Source: a virus | IMG/VR virus record: IMGVR_UViG_3300027770_001980 | Coordinates: 1-64,000 of that record | Length of the DNA stretch: 64,000 bases | Reading direction: 5' to 3' (one strand) | Program-made: the position numbers and the translations under genes | Shown here: piece after piece, positions 7,618 through 17,891 of the stretch | Layout: every line of letters starts with the position of its first letter | Numbering within the stretch: position 1 is the stretch's first letter | Notes under the pieces: generated by a model | Databases searched by the model: none | What the model saw: only the letters and a program-made list of their open reading frames with translations | Told to the model about the DNA's origin: nothing

Positions 7618-7691
7618 GGGATCGTAACTTAAAAGTAAAGTATCGGACTTTTAATCCGACTAAGAAGGGGCAGTACCTTCCGGTCTCACCA
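7618..7691 (+). tRNA. tRNA-Lys(TTT) with atypical T loop
   Basis: Acceptor GGGATCG/CGGTCTC, anticodon arm TCGGA CTTTTAA TCCGA. The T arm GAAGG GGCAGTA CCTTC lacks the TTC motif. Its ACCA end is also the first four bases of hairpin element B1. Confidence 0.8.
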
Positions 7692-7770
7692 TATAAAAAC
7701 ACATTGTCCTAGGCTGTGACCTAGTCCATCAGAAGTCCTTTGAGACAGAAACAATGTGTTTCTATATGGT
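7688..7770 (+). repeat. Long inverted-repeat element B1
   Basis: 20-nt arms 7688-7707 and 7751-7770 pair at 19 of 20 positions, with one A-C mismatch. The 5' arm begins with the ACCA end of the preceding tRNA-Lys. The arms carry the shared signature ACACAT...ATGTGT. The core contains a CTAGG/CCTAG hairpin. Confidence 0.75.
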
Positions 7771-7826
7771 AAAGAAGAAGCCGACATGGAAAGGTAGTGC
7801 AAAGGTATACAGTTGGTCTGGTTCGA

Positions 7827-7912
7827 AACAGAGTAAACTGATTGTATAATGAGCGTAGCACAACCCGCATCGCACGGGTAGTTAGTGGGTTCGATTCCCA
7901 TCTTTGTTATCA
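7827..7912 (+). tRNA. Degenerate tRNA-like gene
   Basis: T arm GTGGG TTCGATT CCCAT; acceptor AACAGAG/CTTTGTT pairs; the hairpin ACCCG CATCGCA CGGGT sits at the anticodon position but has A instead of T before TCG. The 3' end reads TCA instead of CCA and the D arm is unclear. Probably decayed. Confidence 0.4.
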
Positions 7913-8027
7913 TACATGAACACATTCAACGGTAAACAGGATACCTGGCAACTGGACGCAGGGGCTATCCCGAAGATGTAGGGCACTACCACCGTAAAGT
8001 CAGGAAATGAGTGTGTTCCTATATGGT
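7909..8027 (+). repeat. Long inverted-repeat element B2
   Basis: 5' arm 7909-7927 (GAACACATTC inside) pairs with 8009-8027 (GAGTGTGTTC inside) at 17 of 19 positions. It joins the 3' end of the degenerate tRNA to the first bases of tRNA-His. The core has an ACGGT/ACCGT stem. Confidence 0.7.
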
Positions 8028-8100
8028 GTCTTTAGTGTAGTGGCCTGCACCCTGCTCTGTGAAAGCGGTAGTACCGGATCGATACCGGTAAGGCACCCCA
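8026..8100 (+). tRNA. tRNA-His(GTG)
   Basis: Acceptor GTGTCTT/AAGGCAC, with G at 8025 available as G-1 opposite C73 as in His tRNAs. Anticodon arm CTGCT CTGTGAA AGCGG, T arm ACCGG ATCGATA CCGGT, CCA encoded. Confidence 0.93.
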
Positions 8101-9872: not shown

Positions 9873-10670
9873 ATGATTTTAGATTGTGTTACATTTTTTA
9901 ATGAGTTAGAATTATTAGAGGGTAGATTAGAATACCTGTATGATACCGTAGACTATTTTATCATAGTTGAAAGTGATACAACTCATAGTGGTCACCCTAA
10001 ACCTTTAAACTATTTGCCTAACATACAGAGATATAAAAAATATCTGGACAAGATAATTTATTTTCCGTATCCGGCAGAAATTAAAGATCTAAATATCGAT
10101 CAAACTCTTGATAAATTTGATTACGATTCCGCACATTGGAAAATAGAGAAAAGACAAAGAAGTCATATTCTTAATGCGATAAAATTTTTCAAGGATGACG
10201 ATATAGTATTGATCAGTGATGTTGATGAGATTCCTTCTAAATCTGCTATCGAGATAGCATCCGAGCAGTTAGGAAAATCAGCAGCAGCATTTTCATTATC
10301 ACAGGATTTTTTCTTTTATAATTTTGCTCAGAGGCAAAGTTTTCCGTGGAAAGGTACTGTTGTTTCTACAAACAAATTTGTTCAACAACAAGGTCCGCAG
10401 TGGCTTCGTGATATGCGTTGGGATATTCCAACAATATTTCAAGGTGGATATCATTTGAGCTACTGGGGTGATCCAGAACGTATCGCAACTAAGATACAGA
10501 ACTTTGCACATCAGGAACTCAACAAAGAAACCTTTACAGATACCGAACGTATAAAAGAAAGAATTAAATCAGGTAACGATCCGTTTGATCGTCAACCATT
10601 GATTCCTGTAGAACCGGAATCAATTCCAAAAGACATTTATGACATATTCAACAAATATGGCAGTAGTTAA
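9873..10670 (+). CDS. Family 17-like glycosyltransferase
   Basis: A 265-residue protein closely resembling GT17 (beta-1,4-N-acetylglucosaminyltransferase-like) enzymes: N-terminal DCVTFFNELELLEGRLEYL, then FIIVESDTTHSGHPKPL, then a helix with RQRS and LISDVDEIPS, the acidic D-x-D-E site. No signal peptide is present, so action is cytoplasmic, probably on phage DNA, virion protein or a nucleotide-linked sugar. The gene is flanked by an intact tRNA-Ser(GCT) on the left and a broken tRNA-Ser(GCT) on the right, as if inserted next to or into that tRNA. Confidence 0.8.
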   Translation: MILDCVTFFNELELLEGRLEYLYDTVDYFIIVESDTTHSGHPKPLNYLPNIQRYKKYLDKIIYFPYPAEIKDLNIDQTLDKFDYDSAHWKIEKRQRSHILNAIKFFKDDDIVLISDVDEIPSKSAIEIASEQLGKSAAAFSLSQDFFFYNFAQRQSFPWKGTVVSTNKFVQQQGPQWLRDMRWDIPTIFQGGYHLSYWGDPERIATKIQNFAHQELNKETFTDTERIKERIKSGNDPFDRQPLIPVEPESIPKDIYDIFNKYGSS

Positions 10671-11174: not shown

Positions 11175-11250
11175 GCCATAGTAGCTCCAATGGTAGAGCA
11201 GCGGACTGAAAATTCGTGTGTTGCTGGTTCGAATCCAGCCTATGGTACCA
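11175..11250 (+). tRNA. tRNA-Phe(GAA)
   Basis: Acceptor GCCATAG/CTATGGT, anticodon arm GCGGA CTGAAAA TTCGT, T arm GCTGG TTCGAAT CCAGC, discriminator A, CCA encoded. Confidence 0.95.
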
Positions 11251-11258
11251 ATTTATAA

Positions 11259-11266
11259 TATAAATA
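11259..11266 (+). promoter_or_regulatory. TATAAATA late-promoter-like motif
   Basis: Exact T4 late-promoter octamer. The ATG of the next gene is only five bases downstream, so the mRNA would have almost no leader. Confidence 0.55.
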
Positions 11267-11271
11267 TTTTT

Positions 11272-11991
11272 ATGAAAATTGCAATATTACTATCCGGACA
11301 ACCAAGATTTACTCAAGAGTTTCAATTATTTTTAGATAATTTAGTAGGTTATGATCAAGCAGATTGGTTTGTTTACATGACCAATAATAATCACGATCCT
11401 TTTAAAGATAATCGCATTAAAATTCCAGAGACCTGGATAAATTATGAAATAGATTGGGCCAGAGAGACTATAACAAGAAATCTTCCTCCTAACAATTTTC
11501 TCAGACGTTTCGAAATATCGAATGTACACGAACAAATTTTTCCAACTCTTCGAGAAGAACATCTATCTGGTAATCAAGCTATTTTCAAAATGCACTATAA
11601 TATATTTAAAACAAATCAATTAAGAGAAGAATATGAAACCTCTTATAATTTTAAATACGATGCAATTGTTAGAGCCCGCCCCGATGTTGGACTTAATCAG
11701 ATAATAGATCTTCGAAAATTTGATTTGTCGACCAGGGGAGTCTTTATGCCTTGCCCTTTTTATGGACACCCAGGGAGAGAGTCTAATGATTTGATTGGAT
11801 TTGGTAATTCGGAGGTCATGTCTATTTACAGTAATGCCTTACATCATTTCAAAGAATATAGTGATGCTGGAGAAATAGTTTGCCCTGAAACACTATTATC
11901 ACGGCACTTGATTACAAATAATGTATCACGTATAAAATCTGATTTTAGTCACATTTTTCGAACTCTGCCTTTAGATCCTAAATGGTTTTGA
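11272..11991 (+). CDS. Glycosyltransferase-like protein, paralogue 1
   Basis: A 239-residue member of a three-copy family in this window (also 17160 and 22469). Shared features are the N-terminus MKIAILLSGQPRF, then GYDQADWFVYMTN, a YNIFKTNQLREEYE helix, and FKYDAIVRARPDVG, whose R-x-R-x-D resembles the acidic site of nucleotide-sugar transferases. The C-terminus ends LPLDPKWF. ATG 11272 is chosen because the sequence upstream belongs to tRNA-Phe and because family similarity begins here. Donor and acceptor are unknown; the glycosyltransferase call is an inference from motif layout. Confidence 0.6.
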   Translation: MKIAILLSGQPRFTQEFQLFLDNLVGYDQADWFVYMTNNNHDPFKDNRIKIPETWINYEIDWARETITRNLPPNNFLRRFEISNVHEQIFPTLREEHLSGNQAIFKMHYNIFKTNQLREEYETSYNFKYDAIVRARPDVGLNQIIDLRKFDLSTRGVFMPCPFYGHPGRESNDLIGFGNSEVMSIYSNALHHFKEYSDAGEIVCPETLLSRHLITNNVSRIKSDFSHIFRTLPLDPKWF

Positions 11992-12263: not shown

Positions 12264-12382
12264 GTCGTTGTCGTCTAATGGTAGGACGCTTATAAAAGGT
12301 TATCCTGTTAAGGATACAGTCAGCACAATCAAATTCCATGTCAAGGAAGAGATCTGGGTTCGAATCCCAGCTGCGACCCCCA
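12264..12382 (+). tRNA. Oversized tRNA, possibly Asp(GTC) with insertion
   Basis: Acceptor GTCGTTG/CTGCGAC, D arm GTC/GAC, T arm CTGGG TTCGAAT CCCAG. About 40 extra bases, including a TATCC/GGATA hairpin, sit between the D arm and a TTCC ATGTCAA GGAA arm that would give GTC. The end reads CCCCA. Confidence 0.45.
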
Positions 12383-12388
12383 GTTTAT

Positions 12389-12464
12389 GTACATGAGCCC
12401 GAAGATTGAGGGTACCGTTAATTGAGACGGCGAAAGGCGATTGAGATGATACCCATGTACGCCA
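12389..12464 (+). ncRNA. tRNA-shaped RNA without T-arm consensus
   Basis: 76 nt with a perfect GTACATG/CATGTAC acceptor, G discriminator, encoded CCA and the usual AGTTT spacer. A CCC/GGG D-like arm and a CCGT/ACGG arm follow. The T-arm position has no TTCRA; instead ATTGAG occurs three times (in each arm). Confidence 0.45.
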
Positions 12465-12623
12465 AGTTTCGAGATAGACGTAGAGATCGAGTCCCCTGTA
12501 CGCTAGTGCCCTATTTCTTGAGCATGACACACCAGTAGCAGTATCGGGTCAAGCAAAACTCTCTCATACGAGACAAACCAATGAGTCCTTGAGAAAGATA
12601 GTTGGAGGCTCGAAAACCTATAT
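12465..12623 (+). other. Gene-free structured stretch
   Basis: No tRNA or CDS could be assigned. GAGATAG (near 12470) pairs with CTATTTC (near 12513), CTTGA with TCAAG, and TCTC ATAC GAGA forms a hairpin. An isolated AGG CTCGAAAA CCT resembles a decayed T arm near 12606. Confidence 0.35.
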
Positions 12624-13330: not shown

Positions 13331-13414
13331 GCGGGTGTGGTGGAATGGTATACACAGCAGACTTAAAATCTGCCGCTGAAAAGCATGCCGGTTCGAGTCC
13401 GGCCACCCGCACCA
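13331..13414 (+). tRNA. tRNA-Leu(TAA)
   Basis: Class II. Acceptor GCGGGTG/CACCCGC, anticodon arm GCAGA CTTAAAA TCTGC, T arm GCCGG TTCGAGT CCGGC, CCA encoded. Its ACCA is shared with element B4. Confidence 0.95.
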
Positions 13415-13519
13415 TATTGAAACACATTGTGGAGAGCACTGTGTAGATTGAGAAGGTTTGATTCCGACTCACTACATCACTCGGTATCCTGCGGCCGCAA
13501 CAGTGTGCTTCAATATGGT
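13411..13519 (+). repeat. Long inverted-repeat element B4
   Basis: 20-nt arms 13411-13430 and 13500-13519 pair at 19 of 20 positions. The 5' arm begins with ACCA of tRNA-Leu. The core has TGTAG/CTACA, a GG TTTGATT CC T-arm-like hairpin and the palindrome TGCGGCCGCA. Confidence 0.75.
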
Positions 13520-13520
13520 G

Positions 13521-13643
13521 TTATATTAAAATATACTTTTCGTCTCCAGTAGCCCAAACCCGGGGGAATCGCATATTGAGAATGTGCATAGCACAACGGT
13601 ACAGCAAGCATAAGACACTTGTTGGAAGTATGTTTTAATATGA
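13521..13643 (+). repeat. Long inverted-repeat element B5
   Basis: 13523-13538 pairs with 13626-13641 over 16 positions with one G-U. The core contains GCATA TTGAGAA TGTGC, which looks like a tRNA-Leu(GAG) anticodon arm, so the core may derive from a tRNA. Confidence 0.7.
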
Positions 13644-13647
13644 TTCC

Positions 13648-13681
13648 CTGGCGTTCGTATAATGGATAATACAGGGGATTT
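13648..13681 (+). pseudogene. 5' half of split tRNA-Arg(TCT)
   Basis: CTGGCGT acceptor strand, a GTA/TAC D arm (GTATAATGGATAATAC) and GGGGATTT up to the anticodon loop. All seven acceptor bases pair with ACGCCGG at 14480, the 3' half. The interruption falls in the anticodon loop. Confidence 0.75.
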
Positions 13682-13683
13682 AG

Positions 13684-13691
13684 TATAAATA
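13684..13691 (+). promoter_or_regulatory. TATAAATA late-promoter-like motif
   Basis: Exact octamer directly after the split point and eight bases upstream of tRNA-Arg(TCT); it could transcribe that tRNA and the endonuclease gene. Confidence 0.5.
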
Positions 13692-13698
13692 GATATAT

Positions 13699-13775
13699 GC
13701 GACTGTAGCTCAGTTGGATAGAGTACCCGGCTTCTACCCGGATTGTCGGGGGTTCGAATCCCTCCAGTCGCACCA
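13699..13775 (+). tRNA. tRNA-Arg(TCT)
   Basis: Acceptor GCGACTG/CAGTCGC perfect, anticodon loop CTTCTAC on CCGG/CCGG, T arm GGGGG TTCGAAT CCCTC, CCA encoded. It lies inside the module that splits another tRNA-Arg(TCT). Confidence 0.94.
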
Positions 13776-13790
13776 TTTAGTAGAAAATGT

Positions 13791-14429
13791 ATGTATCAAA
13801 AACTAACAAACTGTAAGCATTGTAATATCTCTTTAGAGAGTATGAATGCCAACGAAAGGGCAAACCATTCGAGATGGTGTACATCAAACCCTAAACGGGT
13901 TGAATATGTAAATGCGCTGGCCAAGCATAGAGAAAATATTGTCGCTCCTCGAAATCAATTTGTTAAAGCAAAAGACGAGGGACGACCTGTTCCAAAAGGA
14001 ACAATGACCGGAAAACCCGGAACGATGTTAGGTAAGAAACATTCTCTGGAAACAAAGCAACATCTTAAAGAAAAAGCGTTAGCAAGCCCACATAGAAGAT
14101 TAGTTAGGTCCATTAGAAAATATACACAAAAGGATGGAACTATTGTTAATTTAGATTCTTCTTGGGAAGAAGCATTGGCAATTCGCCTTGATGAACTTAA
14201 TGTTAATTGGATCCGACCCAAGCCGATAAAATGGATAGATGACAATGGTATAACCCATAACTATTTTCCAGACTTTTATCTTGTTGATTTCGACGTATAT
14301 TTAGATCCAAAAAATCCTTATGCTATTAAGGCACAGGAAAGCAAAATAAAATGTTTGACAAAACAGATAAAAAATCTTATAATCATAAGAGGATTAGAAG
14401 AGTGTAAAAATTATACCCCTATAGTTTAA
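13791..14429 (+). CDS. Homing endonuclease (PD-(D/E)xK-like) splitting tRNA-Arg
   Basis: A 212-residue protein. The N-terminus has a CKHCN...C zinc-knuckle-like part. The middle has a NUMOD3-like segment (GKKHSLETKQHLKEKA). The C-terminal half (SSWEEALAIRLDEL, then YFPDFYL, then DVYLDPKNP) matches phage endonucleases with a PD-(D/E)xK-like core: E, PDF and D-x-K. ATG 13791 is used because upstream in-frame codons are tRNA sequence. The stop falls within a tRNA-like 5' segment (14414-14445) that precedes the 3' half of the split tRNA-Arg(TCT). Together with its linked intact tRNA-Arg(TCT) it looks like a mobile unit that interrupts the resident tRNA and supplies a substitute. Confidence 0.75.
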   Translation: MYQKLTNCKHCNISLESMNANERANHSRWCTSNPKRVEYVNALAKHRENIVAPRNQFVKAKDEGRPVPKGTMTGKPGTMLGKKHSLETKQHLKEKALASPHRRLVRSIRKYTQKDGTIVNLDSSWEEALAIRLDELNVNWIRPKPIKWIDDNGITHNYFPDFYLVDFDVYLDPKNPYAIKAQESKIKCLTKQIKNLIIIRGLEECKNYTPIV

Positions 14430-14488
14430 TGGTAAAACGGCGGATTTCTACTCCCTAAATAGCAGTTCGATTCTGTTACGCCGGACCA
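14414..14488 (+). pseudogene. 3' half of split tRNA-Arg(TCT) joined to a foreign 5' segment
   Basis: From the anticodon loop onward (CTACTCCC, T arm AGCAG TTCGATT CTGTT, ACGCCGG, ACCA) it completes the 5' half at 13648. The contiguous 5' sequence (CCCCTATAGTTTAATGG) looks tRNA-like but its acceptor does not pair. GGATTT occurs at both junctions. Confidence 0.7.
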
Positions 14489-14638: not shown

Positions 14639-15340
14639 ATGAACAATGAAAAACATCAACCTATTACAGTGGTAGTGCCTACCATGTGGAGACATTCTCC
14701 ATTTTTAGATTTTGCACAGGACTTCTTAGAATTAAATGTAGTCGAACATTTAATCATCATCGACAATGATATCTCAAGAAGACCCAACCATCCGGTATTG
14801 ACCAATTCCAAAATAACTATTTTTGAATTTGGAAAAAATATATTTGTCAATCCTGCTTGGAACTTAGGAGTCAACAACAGCAAAACTAATATTGTTTGCA
14901 TATTGAATGATGATTTAAATTTTGATATCAGATTATTCAATAGAGTATCTAAGTTTATTAAACCTGATATGGGTGCAATAGGATTGAGTAACGGAATAGC
15001 AGAATTTGGACAAACAATTTTAACTGACGGAATGATCAATTTTGAACCATTTCATGGACAGATATGTGAAGGATTTGGTAATCTCATGTTTGTACATAAA
15101 TCTACATGGAAAGATATACCCGAAGGGTTGAATATCGCATATGGAGATAATTTCATTTTCGAACAAAATCTTTACAACAATCGAACAAACTATTTTATTG
15201 TTAATATGTTTCATCACCATGCAGCATCTACCACAGTTAAAGAAGTATTAAAAGATAAAGATGTGAAAGATGTTTTTTGGCTACGAGAAAGTCTTCTATA
15301 TAAAGACATCAAGGTCAAATTAATGAATAGAACATTTTAG
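14639..15340 (+). CDS. Family 2-like glycosyltransferase
   Basis: A 233-residue GT-A type protein. It has VVVPTMWR at the N-terminus, LIIIDND at the first acidic strand, FGKNIFVNPAWNLGV (the conserved N-x-G region) and CILNDDLNFD as the D-x-D-like metal site. MFHHH near the end may supply the general base or metal ligand. Cytoplasmic, no signal peptide. It is an insertion within the tRNA array between the TAT tRNA and tRNA-Met. Substrates unknown. Confidence 0.7.
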   Translation: MNNEKHQPITVVVPTMWRHSPFLDFAQDFLELNVVEHLIIIDNDISRRPNHPVLTNSKITIFEFGKNIFVNPAWNLGVNNSKTNIVCILNDDLNFDIRLFNRVSKFIKPDMGAIGLSNGIAEFGQTILTDGMINFEPFHGQICEGFGNLMFVHKSTWKDIPEGLNIAYGDNFIFEQNLYNNRTNYFIVNMFHHHAASTTVKEVLKDKDVKDVFWLRESLLYKDIKVKLMNRTF

Positions 15341-15466: not shown

Positions 15467-15895
15467 ATGTTAAAAGAATATACATGTAAAGATTGTGGTA
15501 AAGAAGGAAAAGAAAATTTTTATCAATATCGATATCAATGCAAATCTTGTTGGAATAAACGCACATATCAATCAAGTAGAGATAAATTAGATTTACTCAT
15601 ACACGAAAGAGGCGGAAAATGCGAAAGATGTGGATACAATAAATGCATGGATGCTTTACAGTGGCATCATATAGATCCTACAATTAAAGAGTTTGGAATA
15701 AGCAAACAACGAGGTGCATCGATAGAAGTATTACGAAAAGAAATTGATAAGTGTTCTTTATTATGTGCAAACTGTCATGTCGAGGTACATGCAGAAATGC
15801 GAAATAAAGGATATAAAGTTGTCAGAATTACCCATCCAGAATTTAAAGAAAGATATTTTTCTGGTAAGGGATTTTTAGATTTAATGCGGGTGTGA
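15467..15895 (+). CDS. HNH homing endonuclease
   Basis: A 142-residue protein. N-terminal CKDCG and CKSCW form a zinc ribbon. The HNH core is CERCGYNKCMDALQWHHIDPT followed by LLCANCHVEVHAE, with two zinc-binding Cys pairs and the catalytic HH. The leader carries the clearest ATAAATA hairpin of the window. The last ten bases overlap the 5' acceptor of tRNA-Leu(TAG), so the C-terminal residues are encoded by tRNA sequence. This suggests the gene arrived with, or was fitted exactly to, the tRNA. Confidence 0.88.
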   Translation: MLKEYTCKDCGKEGKENFYQYRYQCKSCWNKRTYQSSRDKLDLLIHERGGKCERCGYNKCMDALQWHHIDPTIKEFGISKQRGASIEVLRKEIDKCSLLCANCHVEVHAEMRNKGYKVVRITHPEFKERYFSGKGFLDLMRV

Positions 15896-16698: not shown

Positions 16699-16772
16699 GC
16701 GGGGTTCGTAAAATGGTATTACCTTAGCCTTCCAAGCTAAAGTCAGGAGTTCGATTCTCCTACCCCGCTCCA
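16699..16772 (+). tRNA. tRNA-Gly(TCC), second copy
   Basis: Acceptor GCGGGGT/ACCCCGC, anticodon arm TTAGC CTTCCAA GCTAA, T arm AGGAG TTCGATT CTCCT, discriminator T, CCA encoded. Its last bases are also the end of the opposing HNH gene. Confidence 0.93.
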
Positions 16773-17041
16773 AGTCTATGCAATATGTTTAGTGCTCTAT
16801 TACGCAGCCGTTGAGTAAACTCCGACTCTGATAACACGCCTTTAGCAAGATTACACTTGCGACATGTTACTTGTAAGTTATTGAAATCAGTGGTGCCACC
16901 TTGTGATTCTGGAATGACATGATCCATATGTATTTCAGAGTCTGACAAATCGTCATCACAATAAACACAGTAGAGGCCATCGCGTTCAATAACTCTACGG
17001 CGTAGATTTAATGGTATGCGTTCTTTTTTTTGTAGCATCAA
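16760..17041 (-). CDS. HNH endonuclease (minus strand)
   Basis: 93 residues: RVIERDGLYCVYCDDDL, IHMDHVIPESQGGTTDFNNLQVTCRKCN, a textbook minimal HNH domain with two CxxC zinc pairs, catalytic DH and the asparagine. It may be a homing nuclease or an HNH of the packaging/repair type. It points against the tRNAs, and its stop (TAG on the minus strand at 16760-16762) lies inside tRNA-Gly(TCC), so its last codons are complementary to the tRNA acceptor. An extra Met precedes the likely start. Confidence 0.85.
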   Translation of the reverse strand: MMLQKKERIPLNLRRRVIERDGLYCVYCDDDLSDSEIHMDHVIPESQGGTTDFNNLQVTCRKCNLAKGVLSESEFTQRLRNRALNILHRLGAG

Positions 17042-17159: not shown

Positions 17160-17891
17160 TTAAATCCATCTTGGATCCAATGGTAAATCTCTCAGAGAAT
17201 TATCAAAATTTCCGGGTGTATAAGAAATTTTGTTTGAATTTAAATGATGTCCAAGAATAGCTTCTGGACCAAAATCCAATACTTGTTTTTCATATTCTTC
17301 AAGATGATTTATGACATCCGAATAGATTGTCATAACATCAGAGTTTCCAAATGCAAATTGATCGTTTGACTGAGAAACCTCTCCATACCATCTATTGCCA
17401 GGCATGATAACAACTTGAGAACTTAGATCATAATTGTTGATATTTAATTCAATTGGTAATCCAATATCAGTTCGTGTTCTAATTACTGCATCATATTTAA
17501 AATTATTCTCTTGTTCGTAGTTTACTCTTAACTGATTAACCTTGTATAGATTATAATACATATTGAATATATTATCGGTACCTATACCTCGATAATCTCG
17601 AACAGGAGGCCATTGTTGAAGATGAACATCGGATATTTCAAATTTTTTAAGAAAATTGTTGTTTGGTAAATTTTCAATTATTTTGGATGTAGCCCATTCA
17701 ATGTCATAATTAATCCATTTATCGTGAGGTGGAATAATATGAGAATTTTTTATTTTTAAGTCTTCTCTGGTAGGACTGTTGGTAAGATACACAAACCAAT
17801 CTGCCTGATTGTAACCTTTTAAATTATTTAGAAAATTTCTGAGGTCGCCGGTGAATCTCGGTTCTCCAGGAAGTAGTATAGCTATTCTCAT
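17160..17891 (-). CDS. Glycosyltransferase-like protein, paralogue 2
   Basis: 243 residues of the family also found at 11272 and 22469: N-terminus MRIAILLPGEPRFTGDL, GYNQADWFVYLTN, a VNQLRVNYEQ helix, FKYDAVIRTRTDIG acidic site, FGNSDVMTIYSD, and C-terminus LPLDPRWI. Unlike its plus-strand relative it lies on the minus strand between tRNA-Val and a membrane protein gene. CATAAATA sits six bases before its ATG, the same arrangement as paralogue 1. Function as a glycosyltransferase is inferred. Confidence 0.6.
   Translation of the reverse strand: MRIAILLPGEPRFTGDLRNFLNNLKGYNQADWFVYLTNSPTREDLKIKNSHIIPPHDKWINYDIEWATSKIIENLPNNNFLKKFEISDVHLQQWPPVRDYRGIGTDNIFNMYYNLYKVNQLRVNYEQENNFKYDAVIRTRTDIGLPIELNINNYDLSSQVVIMPGNRWYGEVSQSNDQFAFGNSDVMTIYSDVINHLEEYEKQVLDFGPEAILGHHLNSNKISYTPGNFDNSLRDLPLDPRWI

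Follow-up and report, generated by a model that had tools for sequence, protein, structure and literature searches.

How does a phage come to carry a gene that is broken in the middle of its anticodon loop, and why should the break be occupied by a nuclease gene together with an intact gene of the same anticodon? The question is raised by a transfer RNA (tRNA) gene, tRNA-Arg(TCT), in a 64,000-nucleotide stretch of viral DNA (positions 1 to 64,000 of IMG/VR virus record IMGVR_UViG_3300027770_001980), called the window here. The anticodon loop of this resident gene is split by a unit consisting of the motif TATAAATA, a different tRNA-Arg(TCT) gene and a nuclease gene, and the same kind of interruption recurs in dozens of other phage contigs. 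We consider it likely, with a probability of roughly 0.8, that the unit is a free-standing homing element, which would cut the anticodon loop of tRNA-Arg(TCT) genes and bring along a replacement that is not cut. The locus in the window contains the following features, all on the plus strand.

13648-13681, plus strand: 5' half of the broken tRNA-Arg(TCT) gene (acceptor strand, D-arm, 5' strand of the anticodon stem, last loop base T34; weight-matrix score 21.1 bits)
13676-13681, plus strand: left copy of GGATTT at the break (sequence inspection)
13684-13691, plus strand: TATAAATA, promoter-like, resembling the T4-type late promoter consensus (motif position and recurrence across loci)
13699-13775, plus strand: intact replacement tRNA-Arg(TCT) gene (ARAGORN; Rfam 65.6 bits)
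13791-14429, plus strand: nuclease gene, 212 amino acids (open reading frame; Pfam, profile and fold comparisons)
14415-14447, plus strand: 5' half of a tRNA-Ile(TAT) gene, overlapping the end of the nuclease gene (best matches are the tRNA-Ile(TAT) genes of L313 and L320)
14442-14447, plus strand: right copy of GGATTT, the Ile(TAT)/Arg(TCT) microhomology junction (sequence inspection)
14448-14488, plus strand: 3' half of the broken tRNA-Arg(TCT) gene (rest of the anticodon loop, T-arm, acceptor strand and CCA; partial Rfam tRNA match at 14422-14477)

The 5' half reads CTGGCGT-TC-GTATAATGGATAATAC-A-GGGGA-TTT, the 3' half reads CTAC-TCCCT-AAAT-AGCAGTTCGATTCTGTT-ACGCCGG-A-CCA, and 766 bp separate the two. 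The acceptor strands CTGGCGT and ACGCCGG are complementary at 7/7 pairs, including one G-U pair, and joining the halves gives the anticodon arm GGGGA TTTCTAC TCCCT with the anticodon TCT. The preliminary description of this locus had pointed to this pairing and this arm, to GGATTT at both breakpoints, and to an intact tRNA-Arg(TCT) gene and an endonuclease gene between the halves; all of these were recovered, the last two as an ARAGORN call and an open reading frame. The foreign tRNA-like 5' segment that it mentioned is present as well and can be specified as the 5' half of tRNA-Ile(TAT). The T4-type major capsid protein gp23 is encoded in the record (E-value 4e-81), which is therefore that of a T4-like phage. 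Because of this gene and the conserved place of TATAAATA within the element we read the motif as a putative promoter; there is no enrichment of TATAAATA over the window as a whole.

In order to find the gene in its unbroken state, we scanned for a pattern spanning the junction. Uninterrupted tRNA-Arg(TCT) genes of this type occur in more than 100 viral contigs, and in seven of the contigs examined (L287, L260, L258, L257, L256, L249 and L243) they are identical to the joined halves at 73/75 positions. The search for an unbroken gene equal to the joined halves, which the preliminary description had recommended, thus succeeded in other viral contigs, and because of this match the interruption must be regarded as real and derived rather than as a chance pairing of unrelated segments. 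The 5' half in the window is identical to the uninterrupted genes of L287 and L249 over its full length (34/34). On this sequence evidence the target at the window locus is tRNA-Arg(TCT), as the uninterrupted genes prove. In L013 the neighbor of a similar intact tRNA-Arg(TCT) gene (65/75) is a divergent nuclease relative.

The nuclease protein was used to search viral contigs, yielding 79 loci, and a profile query extended the set to 71 non-redundant genes. Regions upstream of these genes were scored with a weight matrix built from 84 independent intact tRNA-Arg(TCT) genes, with the 99th percentile of shuffled sequences as the threshold. A tRNA-Arg(TCT)-like 5' half lies just upstream of the nuclease in 43 of the 71 loci, compared with 2 of 129 control stretches, and in these 43 loci the break falls at anticodon base 34/35. 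The motif TATAAATA is found exactly in 30 of the 43 (1.1% of shuffles) and with at most one mismatch in 39 of the 43 (13.3% of shuffles). The order 5' half, TATAAATA, tRNA-Arg(TCT), nuclease and 3' remnant is repeated in many phage contigs. Where both remnants are readable, which is the case in 12 loci, the acceptor strands pair at 7/7 positions in 11, compared with 7 of 132 mismatched combinations of loci; the sole exception is L040, whose halves do not match. The suggestion that the segment is a mobile unit gains from the repeated finding of this module, broken at one anticodon base, across many phage contigs. A species-level collection of bacterial and archaeal genomes yielded no confirmed nuclease relatives.

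The two remnants do not survive equally: 5' halves are clear in 43 cases and 3' halves in about 10. In eight relatives (L017, L019, L022, L030, L041, L042, L153 and L154) what is left of the 3' half starts at the stop codon of the nuclease gene or close to it and lacks the 3' strand of the anticodon stem, and in many others only a few bases of it survive, or none. At the 3' ends of three nuclease genes (L005, L008 and L021) part of the protein's C-terminus is encoded by what remains of the acceptor end of the broken gene, ACGCCGGACCA or ACGCCAGACCA, which is translated as T-P-D. In L053, L055, L058 and L062 a D-loop-to-anticodon fragment with a TATAAATA-like motif lies on the opposite strand between the tRNA-Arg(TCT) and nuclease genes, as if part of the unit had been inverted.

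The identity of the broken gene was also considered outside the window. In a database search the bare 5' half of L048, to which no anticodon bases were added, matches annotated tRNA-Arg genes of cyanophages. A query with the 5' half of L042 also matches tRNA-Arg, and this is weaker evidence, as five anticodon bases were added to it. At the remaining loci the target was assigned by the weight matrix and by the bases CTT(C) of the loop where the gene is broken. For 5' halves of the GC type the nearest tRNA is ambiguous in a small tRNA library that holds no such genes.

What distinguishes this unit is the tRNA gene that it carries. An intact tRNA-Arg(TCT) gene accompanies the nuclease in 65 of 69 loci, or 66 of 69 if an intron-bearing gene in L071 is included, and in most of them it ends 9-155 bases upstream of the nuclease match. 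Twelve nuclease genes first seemed to have no replacement; in eight of these it is located downstream or on the other strand (L054, identified by eye, L065, L067, L069, L070, L072, L131 and L144). A second intact TCT gene was found in none of the 26 loci with six or more tRNAs, and the gene at 13699 is the only intact TCT tRNA of the entire record. It differs from the tRNA-Arg(TCT) that was broken. Across a tree of 69 nuclease proteins, replacements include 23 with a normal cloverleaf, 16 with a GGTGAAA-type D-arm, nested types described below, and others. Replacement type changes 25 times on this tree, where the minimum is 5 and the shuffled mean is 40. That the type was swapped repeatedly and yet remained tRNA-Arg(TCT) argues for selection on the function of the replacement. 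The adjacent tRNA-Arg(TCT) gene and the lack of a second TCT gene fit what a rescue of the broken gene would require, and do not prove one.

The tRNA-Arg(TCT) gene of L071 (3665-3856), which adjoins a relative of the nuclease, contains a group I intron after base 34 (RF00028, 74 bits), that is, at the element's own site; this may link the element to intron homing. In L060 (3819-3941) a tRNA-Arg(TCT) gene has a 49-nt insertion after the loop bases CTT, and the insert itself holds a second TCTTCTAAG loop-like stretch.

Two groups of replacement tRNA-Arg(TCT) genes depart from the usual topology: the anticodon arm is nested inside the D-arm, and the D-loop TGGA follows the anticodon arm. ARAGORN misses the tRNAs of both groups, which were aligned separately by subtype for covariation analysis.

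Nested group c, structure supported by covariation: L024, L022, L020, L480, L481, L482, L490, L048, L154, L099 and L157
Nested group d, structure supported by covariation: L045, L056, L102, L156, L495, L500, L070 and L131

In group d, 99.5% of cells are paired in the nested structure, compared with 46-52% in shifted controls, and both sides change at 14 of 23 pairs, three of them in the enclosing D-stem. The corresponding values for group c are 98.8% of cells and 10 of 23 pairs, two of them in the D-stem. Such covariation on both sides of pairs supports the nested structure. The replacement tRNAs are natural experiments on the limits of the cloverleaf: they could show how far a tRNA may stray from it and, provided they function, still be charged with arginine. 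Similar nested genes that are not annotated as tRNAs are present in Caulobacter phage Ccr10 (L511, 901-963), Vibrio phage PG07 (L512), Microbacterium phages Pumpernickel and Zooman (L513 and L516), Nitrincola phage 1M3-16 (L514) and Salicola phage SCTP-2 (L515). By our own reading the loop CTACGAA of the Ccr10 and PG07 genes would present the anticodon ACG, which also corresponds to arginine. The nuclease is absent from the annotated neighbors of the nested tRNAs in these cultured phages, and evasion of the nuclease is therefore only one possible reason for the nested shape.

Domain and fold analyses were applied to the nuclease. The protein has a zinc-finger-like N-terminus (CxxC..H..C), a NUMOD3-like middle part and a C-terminal PD-(D/E)xK core (HNYFPDFYL...YLDPKN). 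Its motif residues, E126, P160 D161 ... D172 P173 K174, do not vary across 30 relatives, in whose alignment WE, HNYFPDFYL and DPKN are also invariant. The NUMOD3 score of the window protein, 14.6 bits, is below the cut-off of 20.4 bits; 15 of the 30 relatives have NUMOD3 matches, the best with an E-value of 1e-4. Among profiles, those of phage endonuclease families come closest (PHROG 15137, E-value 5e-10). An AlphaFold model has a mean predicted local distance difference test score of 86.5, and its nearest folds are RecE, Bax1, the R2 endonuclease and PvuRts1I, all of which we take to be PD-(D/E)xK enzymes; the matches are weak, with a best E-value of 0.007. Neither the protein nor its 30-member alignment matches GIY-YIG or HNH families in Pfam, and a profile search of solved-structure sequences returned nothing significant. 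An EDxHD fold or motif of the I-Bth0305I type was not recognised among the 50 fold matches listed, with no direct comparison made. Taken together, sequence and model point to a nuclease of the PD-(D/E)xK type with predicted cleavage activity.

How, then, could the unit have reached its place? The nuclease would recognise the stretch from D-loop to anticodon in tRNA-Arg(TCT) genes and cut in the anticodon loop, and repair would copy the unit from a donor phage into the cut gene. The broken tRNA would be lost, while the incoming tRNA-Arg(TCT), with its different stems or layout, would escape cutting and supply the function. The right end in the window suggests a particular route. The segment at 14415-14447 is identical at about 28 of 30 positions to the intact tRNA-Ile(TAT) gene of L313, and in L004, whose nuclease is 74% identical, an intact tRNA-Ile(TAT) gene directly follows the nuclease gene. 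The anticodon arms of Arg(TCT) and Ile(TAT) have the 6-bp GGATTT in common, and it is there that the Ile 5' half is fused to the Arg 3' half. The simplest history would be that the resident Arg gene was cut in its anticodon loop and repaired from a donor with an L004-like layout, the right end of the break being joined to donor DNA by a crossover in GGATTT, inside the tRNA-Ile(TAT) gene behind the donor's nuclease gene. The tRNA-Ile(TAT) half is then probably donor sequence that was carried along. More speculatively, the retained 5' half beside the promoter could act as an operator for autorepression. This idea is based on I-TevI, which represses its own gene through an operator resembling its homing site (PMC2988022), and on the far more frequent survival of 5' halves than of 3' halves.

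This arrangement has parallels in known systems. One is offered by group I introns with homing endonucleases in tRNA anticodon loops, for example that of I-Ssp6803I in tRNA-fMet, and by collaborative homing. The element resembles them in its position within the tRNA, in its PD-(D/E)xK nuclease type and in that the insertion would be made harmless; it differs in having no intron in the window, so that a second tRNA gene rather than splicing would keep the function. Integrative elements enter tRNA genes by means of an integrase and restore the 3' end of the same gene, so that tRNA function is kept. Here, too, a tRNA gene is the landing site and tRNA function appears to be kept, but there is no integrase, the nuclease gene being the only convincing open reading frame between the halves, and a different tRNA gene serves as replacement while the broken one is not restored. 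The segB gene of T4 is located between tRNA-Arg and tRNA-Ile, and its product cuts the tRNA region (PMC2988022). Like SegB and other free-standing Seg and Mob nucleases, ours is encoded in a phage tRNA array, appears to have its own promoter and would spread through break repair in a co-infecting phage (PMC2988022). However, SegB is a GIY-YIG enzyme whose listed target is a tRNA intergenic region (PMC2988022), whereas our nuclease has a PD-(D/E)xK core and the element sits inside the tRNA that it presumably cuts, together with a replacement tRNA. In engineered home-and-rescue (HomeR) drives, a nuclease targets an essential gene whose function the drive is built to keep (PMC7968924). Those drives use Cas9 in flies; the element described here is natural, occurs in phages, and replaces a tRNA gene. 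Within the open-access library searched, titles, abstracts and search passages contained no description of a homing element with a replacement for its own tRNA target.

Other explanations of the locus need to be weighed against a homing element with a replacement. The nuclease might be an ordinary intronless homing enzyme that travels together with tRNA-Arg(TCT) as suits life in tRNA arrays, the tRNA being cargo that serves codon usage or counters anticodon nucleases of the host, with no rescue involved. Phage tRNA arrays can indeed hold homing endonucleases, as segB illustrates (PMC2988022), phage tRNAs can counter tRNA-cutting defences (PMC13096335), and odd tRNA-Arg genes exist without the nuclease. 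Nevertheless, we regard this account as unlikely: the cargo is the same isoacceptor as the broken gene despite many swaps, its distance from the start of the nuclease gene is usually a few tens of bases, and it is not accompanied by another intact TCT gene. It could also be argued that tRNA genes recombined at GGATTT and left the broken tRNA behind as a relic, with the nuclease gene as a bystander. The right junction is such an Ile(TAT)/Arg(TCT) recombination. The left one, however, falls at one and the same anticodon base in 43 loci of many tRNA backgrounds, is followed there by the same motif and mostly lacks GGATTT, which makes this account very improbable. The preliminary description had named a cis- or trans-spliced tRNA as a second possibility. 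On this view the halves would still be expressed and joined into a functional tRNA, and the module would be an intron of an unusual kind. In the window each half is complete and the two are complementary, and L071 has its group I intron at the same site. Even so, no intron family was detected in the window (no RF00028), the module itself contains an intact tRNA with this anticodon, and in the eight relatives listed above the 3' remnant starts past the anticodon 3' strand while elsewhere it has decayed; because of these remnants splicing of the halves is extremely unlikely.

Several points weigh against a homing element with a replacement as well. Cleavage and homing are inferred from the insertion pattern, and the resistance of the replacement and its benefit are likewise presumed. 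A clear 5' half is missing in 28 of the 71 loci, a clear 3' half is kept in only about 10, and the fold matches of the nuclease are weak, as noted above. The replacement in the window, though presumed to resist cutting, has TGGATA and TTCTAC in common with the target. The rescue may bring little benefit, since a phage without this tRNA might use that of its host. Finally, odd-shaped tRNA-Arg genes also occur in phages without this nuclease nearby, and the shape may have other causes. We therefore suggest only tentatively, and with somewhat more doubt than belief, that the unit is a natural cut-and-rescue gene drive of phages, whose nuclease destroys tRNA-Arg(TCT) genes in their most conserved part and whose replacements escape through changed stems, an intron (L071) or nested topology, and that this contest produced the non-cloverleaf tRNAs. 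Cut-and-rescue drives are known as engineered systems; a natural and widespread one, if true, would show how such systems evolve, meet resistance and decay, and it would help explain the nuclease genes and broken tRNAs of phage tRNA arrays.

The array around the locus has further features of its own. The record is 221,356 bases long, and all of its tRNA-family matches lie within 5.6-18.5 kb. Two of these are tRNA-like with 40-50 extra bases, a 122-nt match at 7788-7909 (27.1 bits) and a 115-nt match at 12264-12378 (39.3 bits). Stretches between tRNAs with long complementary ends, for example ATATTGAAACACATTG ... CAGTGTGCTTCAATAT, are located at 7691-7770, 7912-8028, 12385-12470 and 13412-13521 of the window and also upstream of the module in L003; they resemble a family of small structured RNAs that is repeated in the array. 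Two further nuclease genes, both of HNH type, lie among the tRNAs at 15467-15895 and 16760-17041 (minus strand), and glycosyltransferase-like or related genes are encoded within the array at 9873-10670, 11218-11991, 14639-15340 and 17160-17891 (minus strand).
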